Shown here: one piece after another, positions 550 through 57,260 of the stretch | Layout of the letters: each line of letters starts with the position of its first letter | How positions within the stretch are numbered: the first letter of the stretch is position 1 | From: Deroplatys truncata | Taxonomy: Eukaryota; Arthropoda; Insecta; Mantodea; Mantidae | Reading direction: 5' to 3' | NCBI GenBank assembly: GCA_030765065.1 | Contig: CM060977.1 | Location: 95,435,795-95,499,794 of the forward strand | Length of the DNA: 64,000 nucleotides | Notes under the pieces: model-generated | The model's input: the letters and a program-made list of their open reading frames with translations, nothing else | Databases searched by the model: none | What the model was told of the DNA's origin: nothing | Made by a program: the position numbers and the translations under genes

Positions 550-2469
550 ATGAAACCTTACAGCATTCATCAACGCCTAGAGATTGTGAAAATTTATTAT
601 CAAAGTGGATCATCTGTTCGCCAAACCTTCCGTGTATTGCGTGAAGTTTACCGTGTGCATAATCGTCTCCCTGCGAGAGAACGATTCGTCGCTTGATCGT
701 TAAATTTGAAAGAGGTGGTTCTACCAGCGATCAGAAAACGCCTTACGTAATCGACGTAAGCGCTCCAACGAAAACATAGGCGCCGTTCGTGAGAATGTAC
801 GCGAGAACGGAAACAAATCAATTGCTCTTTGAGCGCAAGAATTGGGGCTTTCGACGACCACAACTTGGAGAATTCTGCATCTGGACTTGCGGTTTCACGC
901 TGAAAAAATAATGTTAACTCTAGAACTAAAGCCCAACGACCATACTTGCGCCGTGTATTCGTTGACTGGGCTATGGAGCAATTGGAATCTAACCTGGATT
1001 TTTGTCCAAAAATCATCTTCATCGACGTAGCCCACCTTTGGATGGATAGTTGTATTACCGCTATTGGAGCAATCACAATCCAATGCAGATTCAAGAACGA
1101 CCGCTTCATCCCCAAAAGGCTACAGCGTTGTGTGGAGTTTGGTATGGTGGAACCATTGGTCCATATTTTTTCCAAGATGAAGATGGAGAAGCTCTAACTG
1201 TCAATGGAGAAGATACCGGGCTCTTATAAGGGACTATTTTTGGCCTCAATTGGATGGTATAGATCTCAGAAACATCTGGTTCCAGCAATATGGTGCCACA
1301 TGTCATACTGCTCTCGAAACTATCGATGTTTTGAAGGAGAAGTTTAGAGGTTTCATCATTTCCCGTGGTGGTGACGTTAACTGGCCCCCGAGGTCAGGTG
1401 ATTTAACGCCGTTGGGGTTATGTTAAATCTTAAGTTTATGTCAACAAGCCAGAAACAGTAAATGATCTTATGAATAACATACGCGTGTTATTCGTGAAGT
1501 TGGACCAAATTTTGAGGCAGTATTTTTAACACTTAAATAATTACAGTCTAATTATATAATATGTAAATTCAATAACAGCCCGCCTTGAAGTAATATGTAT
1601 ATGTAGTAATTTGTAAAATGTATGTAACAGTCATTGCATATGCTTATATTATTGTATCCATGTGTAATAATGTTATTTGTGATTCTTGGAAGCAATTATG
1701 TAATTTTAGTGACAGTCTAATAATGGCCAATCAACAACCAGAAAAAACTTTAGTTGAATGCAAGTATTCTATTGGAGTGGGATTAACTAATCAGAGACTT
1801 GAAATACAGAAATTTACAAGCTTAGACGGTTGAAATCTATTCAGTTGCCTGCAAACAGTGATTGTAACCGGATGCTTTTGCGTCCTCGAGAGATTTAATA
1901 CCTATTCGTGTGAGACGAAAATTAAGTTTACGTGTTAAAAAGTGTAATTAATTAATAAAAAGAATCTCACAGCTCTCTATGTCAGTGAAGTGCTATTTAA
2001 TTTGTGTCAAGGATTAATAAAAAGGAGTAATTTAAAACTTAAAGTCTGTGTAAGCCTACATTCTTGTCGCATCACGCCCTGCCAAGACATTCATGTCTCT
2101 AACAATAATACTGACGCAGCCGAGGCAAACATAAATATATAATATTTAAAGAAACAGTTTAATTAAAAAGTTAATGTTTTTTAAACTTGGGGCAAAGGCC
2201 ACCTAAAAGTACATTTGGGGCGAAGGCTACTGGAAACTGTTTACTATACGTGCTGTTGTAACTACTACAAGTTCGGTTACCCAACAATTGAAATATAATC
2301 CAACTCCTTCAATACAATCTGAATTGTCATACGTAGCAGCAAACAACGTAAAGACAATATCAATTTCTTCAATTTTCGCTCCTCTGTCGTTGCAAAAGGA
2401 CTCAACCGTATACGCGAAACCCAACGAGTTCGCGGCGGTCACATAACTAATGTGCTCTTCCACAGGTAA
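550..2469 (+). pseudogene. transposase pseudogene (DDE, Tc1/mariner superfamily), split by solo LTR
   Basis: The start is MKPYSIHQRLEIVKIYYQSG, a helix-turn-helix N-terminus of the type used by transposases to bind their own ends. Later pieces include RRLIVKFERGGSTSDQKTP (near 680-740), FVDWAMEQLESN, KIIFIDVAHLWMD (first acidic residue, near 1010-1045), YGGTIGPYFFQDEDGEALTV, WFQQYGATCHTA (near 1279-1312) and WPPRSGDLTPL (near 1382-1412). The second catalytic Asp, normally in QQDGA, is Tyr. Several frameshifts and stops are present. The C-terminus is cut after EVGPNF at 1512 and resumes in the same frame at 2367, ending RGGHITNVLFHR and TAA at 2467-2469, so the LTR insertion explains the gap exactly. 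Confidence 0.8.
1513..2362 (+). repeat. solo LTR, family C, with primer-site-like array at its 3' end
   Basis: 850-bp LTR beginning TGAGGCAG and ending CA, flanked by the direct repeat ATTT (1509-1512 and 2363-2366). Three other copies share its start, CCAAT boxes (e.g. GGCCAATCAACAACC near 1724), AATAAA signals near 1955 and 2015, and a GCAGCCGAGGCAAAC motif near 2118. The last ~175 bases (2187-2362) are units of the type ACTTGGGGCAAAGGCCAC, TTTGGGGCGAAGGCTACT and GTTCGGTTACCCAAC. These correspond one by one to the array in the copy at 7473-8449. No internal retrotransposon sequence remains. Confidence 0.85.
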
Positions 2470-3403: not shown

Positions 3404-4069
3404 TGTGTTACACTCACATGACGTTCTCTACTCTTGTACAAACTATTTTTACAAACGCTTATTCTCCATCTACTTCAAGTTAATCGAGATAAACGTTTGC
3501 AGATTCCATCTTATTGCTAATTTTCTTGTAGATGTAAGGGGAATATATATTTACAAGGCCAATATAGAAATACAGTAGCCTTTAAGCACATACATATCTC
3601 TTAATAGCTGGTTGCTAGGTGCAGCACCATTGTCTTTGCCACAGAATAATACTCTTTGCATGTCCAAGACAAAAAAATGAATAACGAATTCCCATTTGAG
3701 AAAATAAGAATTGAAAAATTTAAGGGAATAACAAGCAATATCTCGAAAATGGTTCGCTCAACAAAAAGAATGCATATGACATAAATTGTGTATTTTAACG
3801 CGATCTACATTTTTTGTTTAGTAAAATTTTGTGGTTTACCAGTTGTGCAAAAGTCGTTCACAATAAAGAATACTTTTGGAGACATTCCCAGAAAATTCGA
3901 GATATACGTTTTATTTGTCATGAAAATATCTTAAAATATGATATTTTAATGAAAATCGTTAGTCTTTTGAGAAAATTAAAATTTTCGAAAAATGTTCCAT
4001 GTAAAACGTAATCTGGGGTGGGAGAATTTTCTTGAAAACCTTCGTGTCGCACCTCTGGAAGATACTGAA
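3404..4069 (+). repeat. dispersed repeat family A, 5' part (split copy)
   Basis: Starts with the family head TGTTACACTCACATGACG and continues through TTATTCTCCATCTACTTC, CTTTGCATGTCCAAGAC and CCCAGAAAATTCGAGATAT to GGAAGATACTGAA. The copy resumes at 5151 after an insertion flanked by ATACTGAA on both sides. No protein is encoded; frames differ from copy to copy. Confidence 0.75.
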
Positions 4070-5150
4070 ACGGCAACTCTAGGCCGAGCCCGACAAATGT
4101 AATTATACATAATTTGATTTATTAATTTTTATTGATGTTAAATCATACTATGTACGTATCTTTTTCTTTTACTGCTTGTATAGTTTAAGAAGGGTGATTT
4201 AACGATATGTCTGTATTTAGGTTACTAATATTAGAGGAGTTATAAATTGTTTAATGTAAATAATTTAAGCGCTATGTTAAAATACTGTCCACGACGAAAT
4301 GTCTTAGCTGCAGGAATAGTGTCTTCAAAGGCAGAAAGTCTAGTTTTACGATGTCTCTCTGGTCGCAGGGGCATTGTTCATACAGCGAGGGTGTAGAGTT
4401 CCTTTATACGATAATTCGCCGTGACCAAGTGAGAGAGACAACTAGCTTAACGGTAAATTTAGGAAAAGCCGCGATTTACGTTAAATTTGGACCAATGAGA
4501 TCCCTGTAAGTTTATATGAAATAGTGAGACGCGTTGAGTGGCGCTAAAAATGGATCAATAGGAAAGGAAGCAGCCCCAGAAGCCTGAGACTATAAATGGA
4601 TCTGTTAGGAACTAATTCGTGGTCATTTGTGGGTCATTTGCCATTTGGTCAGGGAACACTTTGCTAAACTACAGGCAGGGAGACATGCTGCAGGATGTTT
4701 GAGAGATATCGCGCCAAAAGTGAATGAAGACAGTTTTCGAAACACACATAAGAATGGCTACGCGTAAAGAGATATAATAAGCTTATGTAAACTTCGCGTC
4801 ATATCCGCGCCGTGTTTCAACAGCGGTGGACAGTGTTTTAACGGCGGCAATATCAGTGTTGTGTACTACGAGAAGTAGCTAAATAAAAGAAACTGCAGTG
4901 TCGTCTTTTTGTAACCAAAGCACGTCTATTTCTCCTTTTACCACCGCCCGAGATCTACGCTTCCTTTACCAAGGATAAGTCCATGCTCCCATATAGTTTA
5001 AAGAAAATTACTGAAGCTAGCCGAGGATATAAAAATACAGAGAACCAGCACACTGCGAACATATGGAGCCAACATGCAGGATGCAGCAGGTAAGCCGCGA
5101 GCAACGGGCATTAAAAATACCCAAACTTCGGACAGGAGGTGACTGCCGCA
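4070..5150. mobile_element. non-autonomous DNA transposon with 8-bp target duplication (unclassified)
   Basis: A 1081-bp insertion in a family A copy, bounded by the direct repeat ATACTGAA (4062-4069 and 5151-5158). Its ends are weakly inverted: CGGCAACTCTAGG at 4071 against the reverse complement of the right end, CGGCAGTCACCTCC. An 8-bp duplication is usual for hAT and several other cut-and-paste superfamilies. I see no transposase. AATAAAAGAAACTGC near 4882 and TATAAATGG near 4591 look like expression signals but are unsupported. Confidence 0.6.
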
Positions 5151-5396
5151 ATACTGAACCTAAATACCAAGTTTGGTGTTTATCCGACTGTTCGTTTCTG
5201 AGTTATGCTGTTCACAGACAGCCACACACACAGACAGACACACACAGACACACAGACACACACACGGACATGTTTCCAAAAATACTTTTTTGGATTCAGG
5301 GGGTCTCAAAACATGTATTTCCGGTGAAATCTCGGTATTGAATTTTTGGGTGGAATGCAATACTTCCCCTAATTACTATACGTAGTAGAGAAAGTA
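5151..5396 (+). repeat. dispersed repeat family A, 3' part (split copy)
   Basis: Continues the copy from 4069: AAATACCAAGTTTGG, TTTCTGAGTTATGCTGTTC, a CACAGA/CACACA simple-sequence run (about 5220-5270), GGTGAAATCTCGGTATTG and TTTGGGTGGAATGCAATAC. It ends with the family tail GTAGTAGAGAAAGTA. The small frames over the CA run are artefacts of simple sequence. Confidence 0.8.
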
Positions 5397-5772
5397 AAAA
5401 GAAGTGAAATTAAAAAGTAAATTCTGTGACGTATTTTAATTCTTGTCTTATCACAACATTAAAAGAACTTGTGTTTCTATAGTGCGACTGAAAGCAGCCG
5501 AGGCAAATAACTTTAATTATATTACGTAAAACAAGCATCATATTCATTATAAAGTTTGGCGTCCCAAGCATCAAACTACATCAAAGTGTATCTTCATTAC
5601 GTAACCTAAATACATTTTCAAAGTGACGCAAATACGCGGGGATGCTCACATCTAATATCCAGCATCCAGCTAAATAATTTTTTCAAAGTTGGAAACAAAT
5701 ACAACGAGGCTGAAATACATTCTTCAAATTGGCGTCCCTCAACGTGGAGCTAAATAATTACATAACAACACA
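5397..5772 (+). repeat. LTR family C, 3' half with primer-site-like array
   Basis: Contains the U5 marker GCAGCCGAGGCAAAT (near 5498) and then four tandem units: AAGTTTGGCGTCCCAAGC (near 5560), CAAAGTGACGCAAATACGCG (near 5620), CAAAGTTGGAAACAAATAC (near 5686) and CAAATTGGCGTCCCTCAACG (near 5726). The 5' half is missing; the copy abuts the tail of a family A repeat. See the family C solo LTRs for complete versions. Confidence 0.7.
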
Positions 5773-5984
5773 CTTTTTCAAATATACGTTAATTTGTATT
5801 TACGTAACCACAATATTAACTTCAAGTAGGAAACGGCCTCGCGCTTTAACATTTCAGTGTAAAGCACTGGAAGTGAATAGATACAATCAATTTGAAACTT
5901 TTGATCCAAATGAGATAGTATTTAATAAAAACCTAATCGATGGACTCCTGAGAGTTATTAGAGCTTAGGGAGGTGATGATTGGA
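5773..5984. other. unrecognised segment between LTR and LINE remnants
   Basis: About 210 bases with one open frame (to TAG at 5966) whose product, including FETFDPNEIVFNKNLI, I do not recognise. It may be leftover retrotransposon internal sequence downstream of the LTR fragment. No start, promoter or conserved motif supports a gene. Confidence 0.3.
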
Positions 5985-6808
5985 AAAACAGGGAGAAAAC
6001 TATACAATAAACAGGTTTCAGTGCGGGCTGGTAGGGGTACGTCCCTTCTGTTCCGCCGCTGCCAAATCGGCGATTTTATCACCCAGAAGTTTTACCTGTG
6101 TTGTTCACTCTTCAGATTTGTGTATTATTTTACGTCGCCGCATCCTCTCGCTTTGGAGCGATGAGTGGACGGCCCTCCGGGGGAAGAAGCTGCGGGAGGT
6201 TAAACTTCTTCCGTTAGTCTGGGTTACCTCTTCTCGTTCTTCTCGTCGGAAGAGGTACTTTAAACTCGTTTACGAATCGGACATTGCGTTTTTAGTCATA
6301 GATACCTACTCAGTGGTGATCCCGCACCACTCTGTGTTCAGTGTGATTCGTCCTTAACGGTGCGTCACATTTTAACAGAGTGTCAAGTTTTAGCTCCGTT
6401 GCGCGTTCGTGTGGGCCTGCCTGTTGCCAATATCAACGTTTTGGCAGACGACGCGCGTGCTGTAGAATTGCTTTTACGTTTTATAGGTGACAGTGGTTTT
6501 AATCGGTGCATTTGATGCCCTGAGCGTCTTTTAGGTTTGAGATTTTCTATTGTTTTACTGGGGCTCTTCTCCCCGGCGAACATATGACGCTCATGTCCCT
6601 CGTATTTTACAGTTCTTGACACGTTTTACTCTTTTATTGAGCATGTTTTTAGTCTGTTGGTTTTTAGAATTTGGTGTTTTGCTTTTTAGTTTTTTGACAG
6701 CGGGTTTGTGTACCGTGTTTTAGTTTTTGTGTTTTAAATTTTATACATTGTAAGGGCGCTGATGATCCTAGATGTTTAGCGCCCTTAAACCCCATCACAT
6801 CATCATCC
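5985..6808 (+). pseudogene. LINE 3' end: C-terminal region and 3' UTR
   Basis: Frame-broken C-terminus of an I/Jockey-like non-LTR element. It reads WTALRGKKLREVKLLPLVW (near 6160-6220), SSRSSRRKRY, then in another frame DPAPLCVQCDSSLTVRHILT (near 6317-6376) followed by EC, the terminal CxxC-H-C motif that follows RNase H or RT in these elements. The ORF runs to a stop after GDSGFNRCI (TGA near 6512). The 3' UTR ends with a GTTTAGCGCCCTTAAACCCC motif and a short ATC-type tail (about 6793-6808) in place of poly(A). The 5' end is truncated. Confidence 0.7.
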
Positions 6809-7387
6809 CTTCTGTTCACCTACCTGTCAAATATGTAATGTAATCTATTGCAAGTTCTTGTAGAGAAAGTAAAACAAATGGAAGGGTTAGGCACAATGAA
6901 AGTTGTAAACGTGTAATGAAAGTTTATCTCGATTAAAAAGAAATGGTATGTCAGTAGAGAATGTCATGTGAATGCAAAGTATGAGTTGTGCTTTAATTTG
7001 ATGTGTGTTATATTTTCCAGATGCGATATTAGAAAGTGCCTTCCTAGTTCTCTCGAAACAGCGTTTGCTTTCAAATAAGACCCAACACATTATGATAATT
7101 ACCCTGAGAACAACAGCCAGTAAGTTTCACTTCTTGTTAATGCATATTGTTTCTGTTCAGTGTATCGTCTTCCAACTGCAACTTGATTTGGTAACAGACA
7201 TGGTGAAGCAAAAAGAAGTGAATCAAGCTCAGCAGACTCTAGAGATGAAACAAAGAAGCATGCTACCAGCTGAATCATTTGCAAAAGACGTGAGGCGAAT
7301 AACAAGCAAACATAAATGCATAACATCTATCAAGCGTTGACGACAGCAGGCAATCCACTGATTGTCAGTGGGTGATTACAATAAGAA
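6809..7387. other. no gene seen; family A fragment on minus strand
   Basis: Bases about 6850-6985 resemble the head of family A read on the minus strand (GTTTATCTCGATTAA, GAGAATGTCATGTGAATGC). The rest, to 7387, has a frame of about 110 codons that matches nothing I recognise and has no supporting signals. Confidence 0.4.
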
Positions 7388-7472: not shown

Positions 7473-8449
7473 TGAGAAAGGTATTGTCTTTACGCCACGT
7501 ATGGACGCCAATTTGAGAAAGGAGTATTTTAGAAATTGTATCGTATTTCAACTGTTGGGGACCCTAACTTCTAGTAGTTGCAACTGCAAGTATAGTAAAC
7601 AGTTTCCTGTAGCCTTTGCCACAAATGTACTTTCAGGTGGCCTTTGCCCCAAATTTAAAAAAAAAATTAACTTTGTAATTTGACTGTTTCTTTAAGTATT
7701 AAATATTTATGTTTGCCTCGGCAGTCTGTCAGTATTTGTTAGAGACACGTTTCTCTTAGCAGGGTTTTCGTACGACTAAGAATGTAGGCTTACACAGATT
7801 ATAATTTTACTTCACTCCTTTTATTAATACTTGATACAATTTAAATATCACTTCACTGATATAGAAAGCTGTGAGATTGTTTTTATTAATTAATTACACT
7901 TTTTAACACGTAAACCATTTTTCGCTTCACACGAATACGTATTAAATCTCTCGAGGACGCAAAAGCAACGCATCCAGTTATGAGCACTGTCTGCAGGCAA
8001 CTGAATTAATTTCAACCGTCTAAACTTGTAAATTTCTGTATTTCAAGTCTCCGATTGGCTATTCCTAATCCAATAGAATACTTTCATTTTACTTAAGCTT
8101 TTTCTGGTTGTTGATTGGCTATTTAATAAACTGTCACTAAAATTACATTACTGTTACTCCAATAATCACAAGTAGTACTGTTAAACTTTCTTACTTATTA
8201 TTGACTCAAGGTTACTTCATTGTTACCACATTGTTAGCAACTTTTAACTTATTTCTCACAGCTCCTACATTATTAAATTACGTAATATATTCACATAACA
8301 TTATTAAACATGTTTACAATAAGATAAATGACTGTTACATACATTTTACAAATTATTACATACACACATTGCTTCAAGGTGGGCTGTTATTGAATTTACA
8401 TATTATATAATTTCACTGAAATCATTTAAGTCTTAAAAACACGGCCTCA
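7473..8449 (-). repeat. solo LTR, family C, minus strand, TSD ACGT
   Basis: 977-bp LTR with TG...CA ends on the minus strand: start TGAGGCCGTGTTTTTAAG at 8449, end ACCTTTCTCA at 7473. ACGT flanks it at 7469-7472 and 8450-8453. U3 has CCAAT boxes (GTTGATTGGCTATTT and CCGATTGGCTATTCC on the plus strand near 8050-8125). Its last ~190 bases (7473-7660 on the plus strand) hold the primer-site-like array, including minus-strand AAATTGGCGTCCATACGTGG near 7515-7496 and ATTTGGGGCAAAGGCCAC near 7650. The LTR splits a family A repeat. Confidence 0.85.
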
Positions 8450-9623: not shown

Positions 9624-10375
9624 TATACAGGGTGAATCATCTGAAACTTGCACCGCAAATATTTCGGAAATAGAAAGTGCTATTGATGTGCAGTTTTTAC
9701 AGCATTGATTAGTAGTCAGGGGCTCGAACATTTAGCCTATAAAAAGATTTTAATAATACCGAGAAAGTGTAATTTCTGAGCAAACATACAATTTTTAAAT
9801 GGAACAATGTCCAGTTACAACAACAGAATAATGTTGCGGTAAATTGGAATGTCAATGGTCTTTGTTACAGGATTCTACTGCAAGTGGTTTACGAGAAATC
9901 GTAATTTGAAAAGTTTCCACCCCGACAATTGTTTGTCCCATTCAACCTGCTTAGTTGTTAAGTACCATGTTGTTATGTATGTTTGCATTGTATTTTCTGT
10001 ACATTGATTGCAATGCGACTTTCTGGTCAGTTAGTTTGTAACAGTTCAATCAGTACGTCGTGAGTGGAAGATGGGGTTTACTAATGCAGAAAAAGCCGAC
10101 ATGCTCATGGTGTATGGAGAGTGTAGGAAGAATGCAGTTCGCTCCTGCACAGTGTATGTGGAAACGTATCCAATAGACGTCAACCATCTCGGCAATTATT
10201 TATCAACCTCTTCAACCAATTACGTGAAATTGGTACTGTAACATCTAGAAAACGTAACAGAAACGAACGAGTGACTGGAGAAGAGGCAGAAATTAATATT
10301 TTGGCTGCCGTTGCAGTAGATCCGCAAATTAGTTCCCGCACAATCGCACGTGGAAGTGGCATAAGTCAGGCAAGT
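9624..10375 (+). mobile_element. 5' part of a transposon related to the element at 42641-44230
   Basis: Starts TATACAGGGTGAATCATC, close to the terminal TATACAGGATGAGTTTG of the element at 42641. A ~440-bp leader precedes the transposase start at 10071. The element is interrupted at 10375 by an LTR retrotransposon, continues at 14990 and is truncated near 15206, so its right end is absent. Confidence 0.65.
10071..10375 (+). pseudogene. transposase N-terminal half (DDE superfamily), interrupted
   Basis: The start codon at 10071 gives MGFTNAEKADMLMVYGECRK, the typical N-terminus of a widespread insect IS630/Tc1/mariner-type transposase with an N-terminal helix-turn-helix. One frameshift near 10162 leads to NRRQPSRQLFINLFNQLREI and later RVTGEEAEINILAAVAVD and TIARGSGISQAS, ending at the codon AGT (10373-10375). 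The next base is the first of an LTR. The frame resumes in phase at 14990, so the gene had only the one frameshift here when the LTR element landed. Confidence 0.8.
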
Positions 10376-11357
10376 TGATGCAGTAATTTGTATCACACAT
10401 TACTTAAATGTAAATAATAATTGTAATATGAATATGCATTTTATGTGAAATTTGAGATGTTTATTGATTGTAATTATTGTTGGGAAGTAAGTTTATAATG
10501 CCTTACTGAAACTGACAATAATAGCGCGCAATAATGCAGCGAGGGGGTGAGCTGTTTATCATTATTGGAAACGAGGAAGTTACGTAATGTTGGCGCGTTT
10601 TTTCTTGAGAATCTTCTGGAACGTTTCCCTAGAGCATATGTATTCATAATTTTCATTGGATATAAAAATAGACGCTAATGTTGGCGCGTTTTATTAGCCA
10701 ATTGCAGTTCAGTTATAATCTTTAGGCATATCGGTGTGTAGGAGTATAAATAGGGTAGGTTAGAGGTAAAGTCCGTCAGTTCATCAAAAGTCTTTATACA
10801 CTACACGTCGTCTTCAGTCCGTCAGTTCGTCAGAAATATTTGTATGATACACGTCGCCTTCAGTCAAGCAGAAATATTACACGTCGGATATCGATTCGCA
10901 AGTAACGCGTACAAGAGTTATGAAAATTCTCAAGTATGGTAAAGTTAATTATACAAAAGGTTGAAGTACGTGGATTAAAAGTGATTAGTAAGAAGTTGTT
11001 ATAACTGTTTCAGTTTGGCGAGTGTTAACATCAATGTATAAATGTGATAGTTAACGTGTTCGACAATAAAAGTGTAAAGCAAATTTCTTCATCAGTGTTC
11101 TTTTTGGATAAAAGATTCCTTCCGTTTACACAACCTGTATTAAGAGAAGTGCTTGACCCAAAAGATCAGAGCTAGCTGGAGGACAGTAAACCAAAATTGA
11201 ATAAAATAACAGTCGCATTCTTTCAAACAAACATTAATACTACCGCAAATTGCTAACACCAGATGGAGCTACAACCTAACAAAGAATCACGTCACAAGAT
11301 GGCTTCAACGCGTGAAGTAAACACAAATACACAAACATTATAAGTAATACCACCACA
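10376..11357 (+). repeat. 5' LTR of the retrotransposon
   Basis: 982 bp, TGATGCAGTAATTTG... to ...AATACCACCACA. Promoter-like GGAGTATAAATAGGGTAGG sits near 10741-10759, with AATAAAAGTG near 11065 as a possible polyadenylation signal. The repeated phrase AAGTCCGTCAGTTC/CAGTCCGTCAGTTCG lies near 10770-10835. Close to the 3' end, CCGCAAATTGCTAACACC (11242-11259) is a degenerate copy of the primer site that lies just outside the LTR. Confidence 0.85.
10741..10760 (+). promoter_or_regulatory. TATA-like box in LTR
   Basis: TATAAATAGGG within the 5' LTR; the same sequence recurs in the 3' LTR near 14304-14314. Its position, upstream of the conserved GTCCGTCAG repeats and of AATAAA, fits a U3 promoter. 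This is inference from sequence only. Confidence 0.5.
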
Positions 11358-11360
11358 AAT

Positions 11361-11378
11361 TGGCGCCCAGAACGTGGT
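11361..11378 (+). promoter_or_regulatory. primer binding site-like sequence
   Basis: TGGCGCCCAGAACGTGGT starts three bases after the CA end of the 5' LTR, the place and type of sequence where a tRNA primes minus-strand DNA synthesis. TGGCGCCC is also the start of the primer sites of many retroelements. Degenerate copies of this box are found inside the LTRs of this window. Confidence 0.6.
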
Positions 11379-11726
11379 GCATAGTGACCAGGAAAGGAGT
11401 GAAATAACCAGGAAGGAGAGAAGGAATCAGGACGTGGAGTGAATAGAGCAGTGAACTGAACTACAAGACGCAGATTCCAGAAACAACTATAGGAACGACA
11501 GACTACGCGGATGATTGGACATCGTAATTCCGAGATTAAAAGGCAACAGGGGAATCCAAATACGGAACACCAAAACGACGTAGATTCATCATGATACGAC
11601 GCAGAAGCGACATACAAACCTAGGAGAAAGGGGCAGGAAGCTGGACATCAAAGTAACAGCAACAGACAGCATCACAAAGGTCAGAGTATCGTAATTTTTT
11701 TTAGAAAACAAAATTGTAACATTTAA

Positions 11727-12827
11727 ATGTACCTTAGGAGCGGTAGGATAAAGAAAACAATGGCTACTAATAATATTGAAGAAACAATGATGGAAGGGGA
11801 TAGTGTAACAGTTAGCTGTAATTCAATACAGGTTACAGAAAATAGCTCAAACAATGTAGGATTTGAGGGAGAAAATGTTAGTGCAGAAAGTCAGAATAGA
11901 ATAGCAGGAAATGTTAATTTTGATACTAGTATAATTATGGAAATGTTGAGAAATTTTGGTAAAAAATTAGATCAGAGTATGGAAAGGAATGAGAAATTAG
12001 AAAAGAAAATAGATCAAAACAGGGAAGATATGCAAAAGAATAATGAGAAATTAGAACAAAAACTAACTCAGAATATGGAAAAGAATAATGAGAAATTGAG
12101 GGAAGATATTGGTAAGAGTATTACAGATCAATTTAGGGAAGAAATTGGTAAGAGTAATGAGAAATTAGAAAAGAAAATAGATCAAAACAGGGAAGATATG
12201 CAAAAGAGTCATAGGGAATTAAGGGAAGATATTGGTGAAAGCTTAGAACAAAACAGGGAAGAAATTGAAAAGAAATTCATGGAGCTAGATAGTAGTATGA
12301 TGAGAATGAGAAATGAAAAACAGGAAATGATAGCAAATGAAATAGGTGAAGTTTCAAAGAAAATGTTAGACATGAGCAGGGAAATATCTAACCAAAAAAG
12401 TGAGGTTAATAATAAAATAGAGCATGTTGATGTAAAATGTACAGAGTTAGGTAGCCGAATGAGTAGCGTTTCAAGTGAGTTAAGAGAGATGATGGAGGCT
12501 ACAAATGCAGATTTAATTCAGGTGCAAGTTAATTTCAGAGGGGAAATATCTGATATTCAGAAGGAGTCAGAAACACAGAGAAATAAATTGTCTGAAGAAG
12601 TTAAAGTTTTGTCTATAGATTTGAATCAAAAGCTAACTTCTGAAATTAACAAACACCAAGCTGTTCAAAATGAGAATAATAAAAAATTGGAACAGACAAT
12701 AGAAAATCTGCAAGGTACTGTAAATAGGTTAGAATTCAATTCAAGGGCAAATATATGTGATGTGAATGTATCAGATGTACAAAATAATGATAGAGGTAGT
12801 TCCTCAGGTATGACAAATAATGAGTGA
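11727..12827 (+). CDS. gag-like coiled-coil protein of LTR element
   Basis: 366-residue intact frame starting MYLRSGRIKKTM. Residues about 65-330 are a long heptad-rich, Glu/Lys/Asn/Gln-rich coiled coil (NEKLEKKIDQNREDMQK and variants). No zinc knuckle or capsid major-homology motif is evident in this frame. A 56-codon internal repeat is visible: the phrase starting GAGAAATTAGAAAAG occurs at 11991 and again at 12159. Its product would be structural, probably an N-terminal extension of Gag. It overlaps the next frame by 8 bases (ATGAGTGA). It is the only long undamaged element gene in the window, which agrees with the low LTR divergence. Confidence 0.7.
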   Translation: MYLRSGRIKKTMATNNIEETMMEGDSVTVSCNSIQVTENSSNNVGFEGENVSAESQNRIAGNVNFDTSIIMEMLRNFGKKLDQSMERNEKLEKKIDQNREDMQKNNEKLEQKLTQNMEKNNEKLREDIGKSITDQFREEIGKSNEKLEKKIDQNREDMQKSHRELREDIGESLEQNREEIEKKFMELDSSMMRMRNEKQEMIANEIGEVSKKMLDMSREISNQKSEVNNKIEHVDVKCTELGSRMSSVSSELREMMEATNADLIQVQVNFRGEISDIQKESETQRNKLSEEVKVLSIDLNQKLTSEINKHQAVQNENNKKLEQTIENLQGTVNRLEFNSRANICDVNVSDVQNNDRGSSSGMTNNE

Positions 12828-13206
12828 TGCGGCAGCTTCATCTATAGCTAATGCTGAAACTCAGAGTGCACAAGTTACACTAGAGAATTTCAATATGGGA
12901 GTAGGGAATTTGCAAAATTACAATCATATCTTAAGTGATTTTCCACTTCCAAAATTTAATGAAAACTCCAGTCCAGTACAGTTTATGACAGACTTGTCAG
13001 AGTATTCTCAGATTAAAGAGATAGAAGAATTAAAAATGACAGTTGTTAAAAGATGTGTAGTTCAGGAAACTTTAGATTGTGTTCAAATGTTATCAGGGGA
13101 CGAAATTTCATATGAATACAAGAGGTTTTTTATGAACAAAAATTTGAAGGTTAGGATACGGCTACGAGTAATGTTTAGCCACACACAATTTAATCCAGGA
13201 GGGTAA
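12820..13206 (+). CDS. gag capsid-like fragment, truncated
   Basis: 128-residue frame beginning MSDAAASSIANAETQ, shifted relative to the upstream frame and starting inside its stop region (ATGAGTGA). Residues about 45-70, LSDFPLPKFNENSSPVQFMT, resemble the start of the capsid-like domain of Gypsy-type Gag proteins. Near residue 107 (YKRFFMNKN) similarity to such a domain stops, and the end (FSHTQFNPGG) looks like unrelated sequence fused by a deletion. I infer that an internal deletion removed the rest of gag and all of pol. Whether the frame is translated by frameshifting or reinitiation is unknown. Confidence 0.55.
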   Translation: MSDAAASSIANAETQSAQVTLENFNMGVGNLQNYNHILSDFPLPKFNENSSPVQFMTDLSEYSQIKEIEELKMTVVKRCVVQETLDCVQMLSGDEISYEYKRFFMNKNLKVRIRLRVMFSHTQFNPGG

Positions 13207-13930
13207 ATAGCAATGAGATGTAAAGTAAATGCTGGATAGTTAAAGATGAAATGCAGAGCAATGTATTGGAACGTAAGAGGGTTAACTAAATATATATGTC
13301 ATGAGAAAACAGAAATAAATTCAGAAAAAAAAATAAATAAATATTTAAAAGAAAAAAAATAACCTTTTTTAGTAACTGTAACAGTATTTGTAATTAAGAA
13401 TGTAAAGATTGAAAATTAATATGATATTAAAGTAAAAGTACGTAAATATAATTTCAAGACTATTGTGAATATAAAGTACAAAACAACAAAAATGGGTAAA
13501 AATAATTAAAACAAATACTTATTAGCAAACAGAAAATGTGAAACAGTACTTAGATTTAAGAGATGTAAATATATTTGTGTAGAGGGTGAATATTTTAGTA
13601 AATATGTGTAGTAATTACAAAAATTCTTAAATGCACAAATTGTTGTCAACAATATAAGAGAGTAAACCAATTTTGTAACAGTACTAAATAATTCAGAGTA
13701 CAGTATTTGCTATAAAAAAATTGTAATGTTAGATTAATGTCTAAACACATTAGACCAGAGCCAGTAAGTAGTGGCAAGATAAAGACAAAAAATATGTCAT
13801 GTGCTAAATACGTGTGAAGTGTTAAGTGAAAGTGATAGCGTGTGTTCCAAGTTTTAGGAGACTAAAAACCCAATTATAAAATTTCCAAACAAGTTGTAAA
13901 TATTTATAACTATGTTTCTAGTGGGGCATA
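13207..13930 (+). other. noncoding internal region of the LTR element
   Basis: AT-rich, with stops in all frames. It ends in AGTGGGGCATA directly before the 3' LTR; this purine-rich stretch is a plausible polypurine tract. No coding motif was seen. Confidence 0.55.
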
Positions 13931-14985
13931 TGATGCAGTAATTTGTATCACAAATTACTTAAATGTAAATAATGATTGTAATATGAATATGCATTTTTAT
14001 GTGACATTGATTTGAGATGTTTATTGATTGTAATCATTGTTGGGAAGTAAGTTTATACTGCCTTACTGAAACTGACAATAATAGCGCGCAATAATGCAGC
14101 GAGGGGGTGAGCTGTTTATCATTATTGGAAACGAGGAAGTTACGTAATGTTGGCGCGTTTTTTCTTGAGAATCTTCTGGAACGTTTCCCTAGAGCATATG
14201 TATTCATAATTTTCATTGGATATAAAAATAGACGCTAATGTTGGCGCGTTTTATTAGCCAATTGCAGTTCAGTTATAATCTTTAGGCATATCGGTGTGTA
14301 GGAGTATAAATAGGGTAGGTTAGAGGTAAAGTCCGTCAGTTCATCAAAAGTCTTTATACACTACACGTCGTCTTCAGTCCGTCAGTTCGTCAAAAATATT
14401 TGTATGATACACGTCGCCTTCAGTCAAGCAGAAATATTACACGTCGGATATCGATTCGCAAGTAACGCGTACAAGAGTTATGAAAATTCTCAAGTATGGT
14501 AAAGTTAATTATACAAAAGGTTGAAGTACGTGGATTAAAAGTGATTAGTAAGAAGTTGTTATAACAGTTTCAGTTTGGCGAGTGTTAACATCAATGTATA
14601 AATGTGATAGTTAACGTGTTCGACAATAAAAGTGTAAGGCAAATTTCTTCATCAGTGTTCTTTTTGGATAAAAGATTCCTTCCGTTTACACAACCTGTAT
14701 TAAGAGAAGTGCTTGACCCAAAAGATCAGAGCTAGCCGGAGGACAGTAAACCAAAATTGAATAAAATAACAGTCGCATTCTTTCAAACAAACATTAATAC
14801 TACCGCAAATTGTTAACACCAGATGGAGCTACAAACCTAACAAAGAATCACGTCACAAGATGGCTTCAACGCGTGAAGTAAACACAAATACACAAACATT
14901 ATAATAAATACACTCGCAAATTGGCTACCACAACGTGGGGCTACAATAATGTTAAATAAATAACATTAATAATACTACCACTTCA
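13931..14985 (+). repeat. 3' LTR of the retrotransposon, with an extra terminal unit
   Basis: 1055 bp. Matches the 5' LTR closely until ACAAACATTATA (to 14903). It then has ~73 bp more than the 5' LTR, containing CAAATTGGCTACCACAACGT (14918-14937) followed by GGGGCTAC, an additional primer-site-like unit, before ending TACCACTTCA. The target duplication AAGT begins immediately after, so this unit belongs to the LTR. Confidence 0.85.
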
Positions 14986-28723: not shown

Positions 28724-28990
28724 TGTGGTAGTTGTAGCCCCACGTTGGGCGCCAATTTGCAGCAGTAGCAGCCCTACGTTTAAGCGCCAAACTTGAAGTA
28801 GAATATATTCTACGTAATTTGCCCCACGCTTTGGGCGCCAAACTTGAGAGTAGCTATTACTGCTTCCACATATGGTAGCCAAACTTTAAGTAGTTTAATT
28901 GTTGGGGTTTTTGCACCACGTATTCCGGGAGATATATTTCTTGGAGTGTTCGCCGCACGTACGGTACAAAGCTTCCGGTGGCCTTCGCTC
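28724..28990 (-). repeat. array of primer-site-like units inside the LTR end
   Basis: Read on the minus strand from 28990: ACGTTGGAGCGAAGGCCACC, AAGTTTGGCTACCATATGTG, AAGTTTGGCGCCCAAAGCGT, AAGTTTGGCGCTTAAACGTA and AAATTGGCGCCCAACGTGGG. Units are about 35-75 bp apart. Each has the pattern TTTGGCGCCCAA-n-CGTGGGGC with changes. The last unit is the least degraded and closest to the LTR end. Confidence 0.85.
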
Positions 28991-29781
28991 CAACGTTTAG
29001 AAATCACCTTTGTATTTTAATGTTTATTTAAATATTGTATATGTATGCCTCGGCAGCGTTAGTAGTAATTTGCAGAACACGTATCTCTTAGCAGGGGTAG
29101 TACGGCTAAAGAATGAAGGCTTACACAAATTAAAATGTTATTTAACTTTGTTTTATTAATCCTTCACACGATTAAATAACACATCACTGATATGTCCTAC
29201 TGTCGAGCTGTGAGATTATTGTTACTAGTACTTTTAACACGTAAACATTTTATTATTAACGCCTTAATGGAATTTTTTGTCTCACACTGAATATTTACCG
29301 AGCAAACTGCTCGGGAACGCTTCCTTCTAGCGTCTGCCGCTTGAATTTGCATATTTTTACTCTATTTCAAGTCTCTGATTGGCTAATCATGCTCTAATAG
29401 AATACTTTTATTTAACTTAAGCTTGTTCAAGTTGTTGATTGACTATTTATATACTGTTTTAAATATTACATTATTGTTCCAATAATTACTAGTAGCACTC
29501 TTAAACTTTCTAATTTATTGTTGTTTTAAAGTTACCTAATTATTATCTTTTTGTTAGCAACTTTCTCCTTCTATTCTCACAGTTTGTACGCTGTTAAATT
29601 ACATAATACATTCACATAACATTATTATACATGTAAATAATGCTATAAACATAATACAATGACTGTTACATACATTTTATATATTATTACATACACATAT
29701 CGCTTTAAGGCTGGCTGTTACCATATATTATATTATGCAATTAGACTGATATTTGTTTCAATTGATAAAACTACTGTCTCA
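28724..29781 (-). repeat. solo LTR, family C, minus strand, TSD ATTT
   Basis: 1058-bp solo LTR, TG...CA on the minus strand (TGAGACAGTAG at 29781 to CTACCACA at 28724), flanked by ATTT at 28720-28723 and 29782-29785. U3 contains CTGATTGGCTAATCATG; near 29299 CCGAGCAAACTGCTCGG forms a short perfect hairpin. The U5 marker GCTGCCGAGGCATAC lies near 29055. The last ~265 bases hold five tandem primer-site-like units. All are inside the target duplication. Confidence 0.9.
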
Positions 29782-29834: not shown

Positions 29835-32800
29835 CGTTGCATTACACCACGCACAAAGCAGCCGCCTCTTTGGTTTGACGATTCCCTACAGTGTCAAACA
29901 CAGGACTCCTCTTTTCCCTTCGGTATTTCCCGGGAGTCGAACATACGGCTCTTCGCCTCTCTTCTAACTTCTGAATGTGTGTCGAACACAAGGCACCGCT
30001 TCTCTTTTCCGATCTATGAAGAGAGTGCCGAACACAGACCGTCTCCGCTCTCTTCTGATCTCTCACGGGTGCGTCCACCACAGATATGCGCTTCTTTCTT
30101 CCGATCTCAACGGATGTTCCAATCTCAACCGTGATCTTCGACACGAAGGTGTCGTAATAGAACGCCTCACCTCTCTTACGATCTCTCACGGGAGTGTCCA
30201 ACACGGATAAATTCTTCTTTCTTCTGATCACTCACGCAGGTGTCGAACATAGATATATTGTTCTTTCCTCTGATCTCTCACGCAGGTGTCGAACATAGAT
30301 ATACTCTTCTTGCTTCCAGAGCTCTCACGGGAGTGTCGAACACGGATACACTCTTCTGTCGTCTGATCTTTCAGGGAAGTGTCGCAAACAGATATACTCT
30401 TCTTTCCTCTGATCTCTCACGCAGGTGTCGAACATAGATATACTGTTCCTGCCCCTGATTTCTCACGCAGGTGTCGAACATAGATATACTGTTCCTGCCC
30501 CTGATCTCTCACGCAGGTGTCGAACATAGATATACTCTTCTTTCCTCTGATCTCCCATGCAGGTGTCGAACATATATATACCGTTCCATCCTCTGATCTC
30601 TGGCGCAGGTGTGGAATATAGATACACTCTTCTTTCCTCTGATCTCTCACGCAGGTGTCGAATATAGATATACTCTTCTTTCCTCTGATCTCTCACGCAG
30701 GTGTCGAACATATATATACGGTTCCTTCCTCTGATCTCTCACGCAGGTCTCGAACATAGATATACTCTTCTTTCTTCTAGAGCTCACTCGGGGTGTCGAA
30801 CACGGATACACTCTTCTTTCGTCTGATCCTTCACGGAAGTGTCGAACACGGATAAATTCTTCTTTCTTCTGATCTCTCACGGGAGTGACGACCACATATA
30901 CTCTGGTTTCTTCTCATCTATCAGGGGGTGTCGAACAGCGGTGTACCCTTCTTTCTTCCAATCGCTCACGGGTGTCGAACACAGGTATACACCTCTTTTG
31001 ATCTCTCACGGAGGTGTCGAACAGAGATATATCCTTCTTTCTTCCGATCTCTCACCGGAGTGTCGTAAACAGATATACCCTTCTTTCTTCTGATTTCTCA
31101 CGGGAGTGTCGAAAACAGATTTACCCTTCATTCTTCTGATTTCACACGGGAGTGTCGAAAACAGATATACCCTTCATTGTTCCGTTATCTCATGGGAGTG
31201 TCAAACGCAAGTATACTCTTTTTTCTTCCAAACTCTCACGGGATGTCCAACACAGGTATACCCTTCTTTCTTCAGATCTCTCACGGGATGTCAAACACAG
31301 ATATACTCTTCATTCTTTTGACCTCTCACGGGGTATCGAACACAGATATACTATTCTATCTTCCAATCTCTCATGGAAGTGTCGGACACAGACATACTCT
31401 TCTTTCTTTCTACCTCTCGGGAGTGTCGAGCACAGATATACTCTTCGTTCTTCTGATCTCTCACGGGAGTGTCGGGCACAGATATACCTTTCTTTCTTCT
31501 GACTCTCACGGGGTGTTGAAAACAGCTATACTCTTCTTTCTCCCGATCGCTCATGGGGTGTCGAACACAGTTACACTCTTCTTTCTTTCGATCTCTCACG
31601 GGAGTGTCGAACACAGATACACTCTTCTTTCTTCCAATCTCTCATGGGAGTGTCGAACACAGATACACTCTTCTTTCTTTCGATCTCTCATGGGTGTGTC
31701 GAACACAGATACACTCTTCTTTCTTCCGATCCCTCATGGGAGTGTCGAACACAGATACACTCTTCTTTCTTCCGATCTCTCATGGGTGTGTCGAACACAG
31801 ATACACTCTTCTTTCTTCCGATCTCTCATGGGAGTGTCGAACACAGATACACTCTTCTTTCTTACGATATCTCATGGGGGTGTCGAACACAGATATACAC
31901 TTCTTTCTTCTGATCTCTCACGGGACTGTCGAACACAGGTATATTCTTCCTTCTTCCGATCTCTCATGGGAGTGTCGAACACAGGTATACTCTTCATTCT
32001 TCCGATCTCTCATGGGAGTGTCGAACACAGGTATGCTCTTCTTTCTTCTCATCTCTCATGGGGGAGTCGAATACAGATATACTCTCCTTTCTTCTGATCT
32101 CTCACGGGCGTGTCGAAAACAGATATACTCTTCCTTCTTCCGACCTCTCGGGAGTTTCGAGCACAGATATACTGTTTTTTCTTTTCGGATCTCGCACGGG
32201 GTGTCGAATACAGCTATACTCTTCTTTCTTCCTATCTCACGTGAGTGTCGAACACAGATACACTCTTCTTTCTTCTGATCTTTGATAGCGGTTTCGAACA
32301 CAGGTATTCTTTTCTTTCCTCCGATCTCTCACAGGAGTGATGAAAACAGATACACTCTTCTTTCTTCTGATCTCTCATGGGGGTGTCGAACACAGGTGTA
32401 CTATTCTTTCTTGTGATCTCTCACGAGAGTGTCGAAAACAGATATACTCTTCTTTCTTCCGATCTCTTACGGGAGTGTGGAACAGAGACATTCCCTTCTC
32501 CGATCTCACATGGAAGTGTCGAACTAGAACGCCTTGTGTTTCTTCTGACCTCTCACAAGAGCGTCGAACAAAAAACTCATCTCTTTTACGATCTCTCACG
32601 CGAGATTGTTGAACATCTCCTCTCTCTTCATGTCTCTCATGGAAATGTCGAACACAGAGCTCCTCTTCTTTTTTCTGATCTCCCATGGGAGTTTCGAATA
32701 CAGGGTAACTCTCTTTTTTCAGATCTCTCACGGAACTGTCGAACACAGACCTCCTCTTCTATATTCTGAGCTCTCATGGGAGTGTCGAATACAGGGTTTC

Positions 32801-32945
32801 TCTCTCTCTTTTCAGATCTCTCATGGAAAGGTCGAACACAGATCTCCTCTTCTGTATTCTGAGCTCTCATGGGAGTGTTGAATACAGGGTTCCTCTCTCT
32901 TTTTTCAGATCTCTCACTGAACTGTCGAACACATGGCTGCATTTC
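29835..32945. repeat. minisatellite of 46-bp units (about 67 copies)
   Basis: Tandem units 46 bp long; for example the box GTGTCGAAC starts at 31742 and again at 31788. A typical unit combines CTCTTCTTTCTTCCGATCTC with TCATGGGAGTGTCGAACACA. Subtypes are grouped: CACGCAGGTGTCGAACATAG around 30230-30770, CTCATGGGAGTGTCGAACAC around 31600-32040, and a two-unit higher-order pattern at 32640-32940. The typical unit has no stop codon in any of the three forward frames, so frames of up to 306 codons arise, with a 46-residue repeat such as HGSVEHRYTLLSSDLS. The reverse strand has one TGA per unit. I regard the frames as by-products, not genes. Confidence 0.9.
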
Positions 32946-56944: not shown

Positions 56945-57260
56945 GCAGGCAAGGGAATGATTCATGAACGAATCATACACTATGGCAGGCCAGCAGACAA
57001 GGGTACGATTCATGATTGAATCATGCAGTAGGTTAGACCAGTAGGCAAGGGGACGATTCATGAATGAATCGTGCACTAAGGCAGGCCAGCAGACAAGGGT
57101 AGGATTCATGATTGGATCATGCAGTAGGGTAGACCAGCAGACAAAGGGACAATTCATGAACGAATCGTGCACTAGGAGAGACTAGCGGACAGGTAGCAAG
57201 AGAACGATTCATGAATCGTGAACGAATCTTATGAATCAATTCATGAACCGTGAACGAATC
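56945..57260. repeat. 48-bp tandem repeats with GATTCATGAATGAATC palindrome
   Basis: Unit starts at 56959, 57007, 57055, 57103 and 57151 are exactly 48 bp apart; a sixth follows at 57206 after 55 bp. Each unit contains a palindrome-like GATTCATGAATGAATC and the phrase GGCAGGCCAGCAGACAAGG. Odd and even units alternate (GTGCACTAAGGCAGG against ATGCAGTAGGTTAGACC), so a 96-bp higher-order unit is suggested. Confidence 0.85.

Follow-up and report, generated by a model that had tools for sequence, protein, structure and literature searches.

Ty3/gypsy elements (Metaviridae), with Ty3 as the model, resemble the elements described here in the order of the reverse transcriptase, RNase H and integrase domains, in TG...CA long terminal repeats (LTRs), in a short target-site duplication (TSD) and in priming by the 3' end of a tRNA. 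As stated in the available part of one source, the primer-binding site (PBS) of Ty3 is bipartite, with parts in the 5' and 3' untranslated regions approximately 4800 nt apart, and the tRNA sequence is not inherited in either Ty1 or Ty3 (PMC5371799). In contrast to Ty3, the present elements have whole PBS units arrayed to either side of an LTR edge that varies in position. Sireviruses (Ty1/copia), which have multiple identical polypurine tracts, are similar in that copies of a priming site are clustered at one LTR junction; in the accessible text of their description these copies are plus-strand primers located outside the LTR, and the upstream copies have no proper attachment site (PMC2829016). 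Here, on the other hand, the repeated sites are minus-strand primer sites, most of them have an LTR-end CA at a distance of 3 nt, and they are also found inside the LTR. In the mammalian endogenous retroviruses ETn, MusD and IAP, mismatched PBSs are abundant and non-random, and the available portion of that study argues for a balance of priming against silencing by tRNA fragments (PMC7472051). Common imperfect PBS alleles are shared with our elements, but in the same portion of that study the PBS lies 2-4 nt downstream of the LTR, with no arrays inside the LTR (PMC7472051). Tandem repeats inside LTRs occur in an insect element as well, but in the available part of its description these are repeats of the R region and not PBS units. 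Retroviral vectors with two primer-binding sites were reportedly studied by Voronin and Pathak in 2004, in a work whose title names dual initiation. Such laboratory vectors, as far as their accessible description goes, share with our elements more than one PBS per RNA, but they were built and are not natural. The available text of another report states that retroviral progeny can inherit the PBS from the tRNA (PMC4549124), and further related literature, likewise available in part, is found in PMC3601003, PMC11181671 and PMC4580426. A literature search in which many matches were irrelevant and subscription papers were mostly outside the scope gave no account of PBS units arrayed in tandem within LTRs; the preliminary description of this DNA had likewise known of no family with such a habit.

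LTR retrotransposons whose edge falls at one or another primer cassette of a tandem array are real and widespread in the host genome. The core idea of the preliminary description, that an LTR end can take in its primer region, holds; its one-way version, with the newest unit always outermost, does not. These conclusions are based on a 64,000-nucleotide stretch of DNA (the window) and on searches of the 4.29-Gb host assembly. The window was scanned with the 18-mer TGGCGCCCAACGTGGGGC with gaps allowed (match +1, mismatch -1, gap -1.5), and the null was obtained from six shuffles of the whole window, searched on one strand and doubled. At a score of at least 8.5, 13 matches were observed compared to none in the shuffles, and at a score of at least 5.5, 67 were observed compared to 30. 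Five of the 13 were away from the sites named in the preliminary description, at scores of 8.5-9.0, so the shuffles underestimate the window background slightly; one of the 13 was an opposite-strand echo. A PBS-like unit stands alone within the window only from a score of approximately 10 upward. The full 18-mer and the gapped score were adopted because the count for TGGCGCCC with one mismatch allowed was weak (19 in the window compared to 11.5 expected, with 2 of 100 shuffles reaching 19). Genome-wide, the PBS pattern TGGCGCCCAAN{0,4}CGTGGGGC had at least 6221 matches and its reversed control none, and the exact PBS 18-mer was present in 5432 copies.

A sequence pattern for tRNA-Lys(CTT) that ends in GCCCCACGTTGGGCG was matched 108 times in the genome compared to none for the reversed control. 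The 3' CCA of tRNAs is added post-transcriptionally, and GCCCCACGTTGGGCG followed by CCA is the complement of the PBS 18-mer. The exact complementarity of the 3' end in 108 tRNA-Lys(CTT) pattern matches identifies the unit as a primer-binding site for tRNA-Lys(CUU), and the proposal that the units derive from a primer site was right. Forward matches made up 107 of the 108, and all among the matches listed lay on one strand in G000:C9:191136748-191200294, many of them spaced approximately 144 bp apart. This cluster on C9 is probably a tandem gene array of tRNA-Lys, the primer tRNA of these elements. ARAGORN found no tRNA in the window.

Unit arrays had been described at five sites of the window. 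The observation is largely confirmed and extends beyond the window; it is sound at the main site, 28724-28990, where three clear units were found. They lie in a solo LTR (28724-29781, minus strand) with TG...CA ends and the 4-bp TSD ATTT (as read on the plus strand), which was the single candidate in the TSD scan; the LTR resembles the remaining solo LTRs in the window as well as sampled loci such as L013, L018 and L022. All units at this site are on the minus strand. The outermost, at 28737-28754 and 13 nt from the LTR edge, matches the tRNA-Lys(CUU) complement at 18/18 positions (score 18), and it is followed by TGGCGCTTAAACGTAGGGC at 28771-28789 (score 10.5) and by TGGCGCCCAAAGCGTGGGGC, which has a 2-nt insertion, at 28821-28840 (score 15). 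Two weak PBS-like units at 28862-28881 (score 7.0) and 28952-28969 (score 6.0) are within the chance range. At 7473, 5560, 11242 and 14918 a single clear unit was found, and at 2187-2362, where the earlier description fails, the gapped 18-mer scan gave no PBS-like unit with a score of at least 5.5. The solo LTR at 7473-8449 (minus strand, TSD ACGT) has TGGCGTCCATACGTGGCGT at 7492-7510 (minus strand, score 10.5) as its sole clear unit. The site 5560-5772 contains TGGCGTCCCTCAACGTGGAGC at 5730-5750 (plus strand, score 11.5) and one weak unit, and the TSD scan gave no TSD-bounded LTR there. A third solo LTR lies at 1513-2362 (plus strand, TSD ATTT), for which an end at 2371 fits too. The duplications reported earlier for the three solo LTRs (ATTT, ACGT and ATTT) and for the two-LTR element (AAGT) were all recovered by the scan. 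The window also contains a 46-bp minisatellite of approximately 60 copies at 30180-32933, approximately 400 bp from the solo LTR at 28724-29781, and a 48/96-bp higher-order tandem repeat at 56945-57191.

The two-LTR element of the window (10376-14985, plus strand, TSD AAGT) has a 5' LTR of 982 nt (10376-11357) with AAGT directly upstream, an LTR-adjacent primer unit, TGGCGCCCAGAACGTGGTGC, at 11361-11380 (score 13), 3 nt past the CA of the LTR, an ORF of 366 codons at 11727-12827, and a 3' LTR of 1055 nt (13931-14985), all on the plus strand. No second ORF of at least 150 codons was found between the LTRs, nor a pol ORF of such size, and the element is non-autonomous. Its 3' LTR contains an extra PBS unit that the 5' LTR lacks, TGGCTACCACAACGTGGGGC at 14922-14941 (plus strand, score 13). 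Deeper in both LTRs there is a 46-bp tandem repeat of 2.1 copies (10770-10865 and 14330-14425), reminiscent of the tandem R copies reported for Pao; the LTR of L014 also has a doubled stretch. Coding capacity was seen in the element at L010, in which an ORF at 3801-7163 contains RVT_1, RT_RNaseH, Integrase_H2C2 and rve in that order, the domain order of Ty3/gypsy. No forward ORF of at least 120 codons lies from pol to the 3' LTR in L010, the one element checked for env. An affinity of these elements with the Osvaldo/Ulysses clade is a possible lead.

Loci were sampled from contig C1. Twenty (L009-L028) came from the first 100 PBS matches and were biased to 13 places with at least two close matches, and L029-L038 and L039-L058 were the first 30, in order, of the 61 remaining C1 places, the other 31 being left out. 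At 15 of the 20 loci L039-L058, at least one further unit with a score of at least 8 was present within 960 bases. A sample of 21 two-LTR elements, 20 from these loci and the window element, was selected by the presence of a perfect PBS. Exact 4-bp TSDs, all with different 4-mers, were found in 17 of the 21, and not in the remaining four (L009, L015, L020 and L027). The TSDs flanked the LTR pairs at, or close to, their TG and CA ends, and in L026 18 nt past the aligned end. In the 5' copy of all 17, the CA of the LTR was followed by 3 nt (AAT or TAT) and then by a PBS unit; the scan imposed the CA at the LTR end and did not impose the 3-nt spacing. That the edges were misjudged and the duplications are chance matches might be supposed, since the scan left the edge position free and gave several candidates in some elements, but each of the 17 different 4-mers matched its own partner at or near the ends of the LTR pair and the spacing to the PBS unit was constant, and we regard this explanation as highly improbable. 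Among solo LTRs, the one at L018 has 19 units inside the TSD GACA (single candidate) and the one at L016 has five units inside the TSD GTAT (chosen among seven candidates as the one that coincides with the LTR's own start); both are related to the two LTR groups of the window. The array of L018 (7467-8300, minus strand) has its 19 units at steps of mostly 45 or 42 bp and is a PBS-derived minisatellite, close to a satellite. At L013, L022, L029, L032, L033, L037 and L038 the TSD scan gave none or candidates that were not accepted, and L019, with no LTR start, was outside the TSD test. Two other arrangements were seen: L023:985-7446 is a tandem element (LTR-internal-LTR-internal-LTR) with three LTRs and two internal regions that are 99.9% identical, and L065-L068 belong to another LTR family, where CAAAC precedes TGG and the 3' LTR apparently extends to the PBS itself.

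Within the 3' LTRs of the 17 elements, 25 PBS-like units (score of at least 8) were found in 13 elements, with 0-6 per element, and 14 further units of the same score were found in the leaders of 12 elements, one or two in each, beyond the adjacent unit. By comparison, chance PBS matches at a score of at least 7 amounted to approximately 0.07 per 10 kb in shuffles, and no PBS-like match with a score of at least 5 was found in the U3 ends of these LTRs (7650 bases). These elements depart from the textbook anatomy of a PBS outside the LTR only and a single fixed edge, with 25 units inside 3' LTRs and modules on either side of the edge. Both the position of the units inside the TSD-bounded LTR and the variation of their number between insertions had been predicted. 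The comparison of the 5' and 3' LTRs of each insertion, also foreseen in the preliminary description, gave equal unit numbers in 12 of the 13 unit-bearing elements, the exception being the window element; the other four elements had no unit in either LTR. L024 has six units per LTR, and its two LTRs differ at 4 of 1333 positions. Given the equal numbers in both LTRs, the unit arrays passed through reverse transcription. Ordinary tandem repeats formed by slippage or unequal crossing-over after insertion, with the primer site merely included, would account for the satellite-like array of L018 and for the one whole unit by which the LTRs of the window element differ. Such change would strike each LTR independently, against the same count in 12 of 13 elements (for example L024), and similar modules reappear at unrelated loci, so that post-insertion slippage appears doubtful as an explanation of the arrays.

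The units consist, in this order, of a PBS core of 18-20 nt, a spacer, and usually an LTR-end-like CA plus 3 nt. The 92 spacers were 18-114 nt long, so the unit size is wider than the 35-75 bp given earlier. CA plus 3 nt preceded 19 of the 25 embedded units and 13 of the 14 leader units (CA background 10.2%), and among the exact PBS copies genome-wide it preceded 4721 of 5432, compared to 104 with CA plus 2 nt. Most units would thus hold what an LTR end needs. In L017 and L031 one spacer module was part of the leader, and in L023 and L024 it was part of the LTR; a second was in the leader in L026 and in the LTR in L010, and a third in the leader in L011 and in the LTR in L031. Modules that are within the LTR in some copies and outside it in others indicate that the edge has shifted relative to them. 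In addition, L024 contains a duplicated two-unit block, and in L030 a near-identical spacer is repeated on both sides of the LTR edge. Spacers identical over approximately 50 nt (for example in L017, L023, L024 and L031) often diverge just in the final 6-15 nt, directly ahead of the LTR-like CA. This part is copied first once priming has occurred, and the pattern suggests template switching right after initiation.

The LTR edge is located at different members of the array. It could be supposed instead that the edge is fixed, and that a disabled PBS was captured once in the LTR of an ancestor and inherited by all, the leader copies being neutral leftovers. The uniformity of the common embedded form (CAAATTGGCNCCCANACGTGGGGC at 10166 places) is in agreement with a single old capture, but the 0-6 embedded units per 3' LTR, the location of one module inside the LTR in some elements and in the leader in others, and the perfect PBSs inside the LTRs of L010 and L024 and in the solo LTRs at window 28737-28754 and L016 are not. 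This explanation is already disfavoured by the embedded-unit counts and module positions, and we consider it unlikely.

The LTR-adjacent PBS was perfect in 14 of the 17 elements compared to 8.1 expected within elements if the perfect PBS could be any unit of an element (p 0.0006); these elements had been selected by their possession of a perfect PBS. Among eight pairs of embedded variants resembling the two LTRs of one element, the adjacent site was perfect in two. Three of these pairs had already been sampled (perfect in L030 and L036, imperfect in L024), and none of the five newly sampled, putative LTR pairs had a perfect adjacent site; TGGCACCCAGAACGTGGGGC was present in three and two forms of TGGCGCCATAACGTG.. 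in two, and in two of the five the edge was ambiguous, at CA plus AAC or directly at the PBS. The proposition that the adjacent PBS is always perfect is ruled out by these five pairs. The imperfect adjacent sites indicate that imperfect sites also define LTR edges, and rewriting from the tRNA is probably not general.

Perfect copies accounted for 2 of the 25 units inside LTRs and 6 of the 14 further out in leaders, from which it follows that the edge probably moves both inward and outward. The displacement of the edge relative to modules stands from the preliminary description; repeated movement in the outward direction only is not shown, perfect copies occurring on both sides. At rank 1 from the edge, 0 of 13 units were perfect (mean score 12.69), and at rank 2, 2 of 6 were perfect (mean score 13.75). 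An outward age gradient as a rule is contradicted by these rank data over the 17 elements; in the solo LTR at 28724-29781 the perfect unit is outermost, and the expectation that the newest unit lies at the edge is not supported in general.

In 35 mixed pairs of units, in which one PBS was perfect and the other was not, 28-30 of the first 30 spacer nucleotides matched, and the mean number of differences was 2.8 in the PBS and 1.09 in the spacer. In 25 control pairs, in which neither PBS was perfect, these means were 2.04 and 1.36, so PBS cores vary anyway; six pairs with both PBSs perfect had 0 and 1.17, respectively. These pairs share units and are not independent. In the four mixed pairs from the same locus (L016, L026, L030 and L032) the variant was upstream and the perfect PBS downstream, a duplication signature that is small and biased, as adjacent sites are mostly perfect in the sample. 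Both orders occur in L013, whose 18-nt spacers are below the cut-off of the pair analysis.

Among the embedded units a uniform variant, TGGCTCCCAWACGTGGGGC, was abundant. CA-N3-TGGCTCCCAAACGTGGGGC was present in 5568 exact copies genome-wide compared to 4721 for CA-N3 plus the perfect PBS, which is not a comparison of elements because each element contributes two LTR copies and solo LTRs retain theirs. At the places of CAAATTGGCNCCCANACGTGGGGC, the first N was T and the second was A or T in 32 of 32 strings among the matches listed, several of which are LTR pairs or local clusters; at one further place (C1:38554471) the first N was G. The insertion-free form of the variant was found at 4104 places, perfect copies included. 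In the 17 elements, 21 of the 23 non-perfect embedded units were without G5, and the same 21 carried one or two inserted bases, which the aligner sets after positions 4, 7, 8 or 9. Cores across different modules were 84% alike (56% when shuffled) and their spacers 66% (64% when shuffled), in pairs picked for a spacer identity under 75%. Neutral decay would predict less uniformity than the embedded variant shows, and the uniformity of the cores could reflect either selection or a common descent combined with exchange at the cores.

It may be considered whether selection maintains the embedded variants in a decoy or regulatory role towards tRNA 3' fragments, with the mismatch and insertion hindering cleavage or priming. 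The loss of G5 together with an insertion in 21 of 23 units and the alikeness of cores next to spacers at the shuffled level would agree with it, and mammalian tRNA 3' fragments target PBSs according to the available portion of the study cited above (PMC7472051). On the other hand, positions 1-9 of the PBS matched at 176 of 207 and positions 10-18 at 191 of 207; once G5 was excluded the halves were conserved to a similar degree, with 174 of 184 matches in the first and 191 of 207 in the second, the half pairing with the 5' end of the fragment being no better kept. G16 was kept in just 14 of the 23 units, and shared descent with exchange at PBS cores could yield equal uniformity. Because the seed-side conservation vanishes without G5, the decoy function is the less likely, and we hold it to be improbable. 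The same low probability is given to a broader proposal, that interchangeable primer-plus-LTR-end cassettes, with the edge chosen at each replication, would be switched on by gaining a perfect PBS at the edge, and that switched-off U5 copies with the fixed mismatch and insertion would act as decoys or regulators against silencing tRNA-Lys 3' fragments. A fit of the embedded variant to another tRNA was rejected, with no genome matches for GTTCRANNCCCACGTTTGGGAG. The predicted duplex with the tRNA was -41.8 kcal/mol for the perfect PBS, -32.2 for TGGCTCCCAAACGTGGGGC, -18.6 to -32.9 for other embedded forms and -28.6 to -36.0 for five adjacent imperfect forms, compared to a mean of -15.6 and a lowest value of -29.2 kcal/mol in 200 shuffles; that embedded variants cannot bind the tRNA is unsupported.

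We consider it likely that these elements carry a cassette array at the junction of the 5' LTR and the leader, that the edge is set by the unit that was primed, and that cassettes multiply and are shuffled by strand transfer. The array would surround this junction throughout a Ty3/gypsy-type group that includes short non-autonomous copies, each cassette comprising a tRNA-Lys PBS or a variant of it, followed by 18-114 nt of spacer and in most cases by an LTR-end-like CA plus 3 nt. In reverse transcription the U5 end of the LTR is set by the start of minus-strand synthesis, and the edge would for this reason reflect the primer site used. The primer tRNA could initiate DNA synthesis at one cassette or another, and the edge would be fixed 3 nt upstream of the PBS of the cassette used; with an outer cassette, the inner ones would enter U5 of both LTRs, and with an inner cassette, the outer ones would stay in the leader. 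Plus-strand strong-stop DNA, which ends in a PBS copy, may then anneal to another PBS copy of the minus strand, and such misannealing would duplicate, delete and exchange cassettes between elements, probably where the first transfer has been to the second packaged RNA. Plus-strand transfer of this kind fits four of four same-locus junctions, with L013 showing both orders. In elements that hold a perfect PBS, the perfect one may tend to be LTR-adjacent, as if it travelled with the U5 side or were rewritten from the tRNA; against this tendency, the adjacent site is imperfect in many elements.

An LTR is normally taken to have a fixed edge, and here thousands of PBS copies form arrays across it. 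In genomes of this kind, annotation that assumes one PBS right after the LTR may set edges wrongly. The arrays are a natural record of the primer site used at each insertion, from which it can be tested by sequence whether these Ty3/gypsy elements take their PBS from the tRNA and how plus-strand transfer at repeated PBSs reshapes LTRs.
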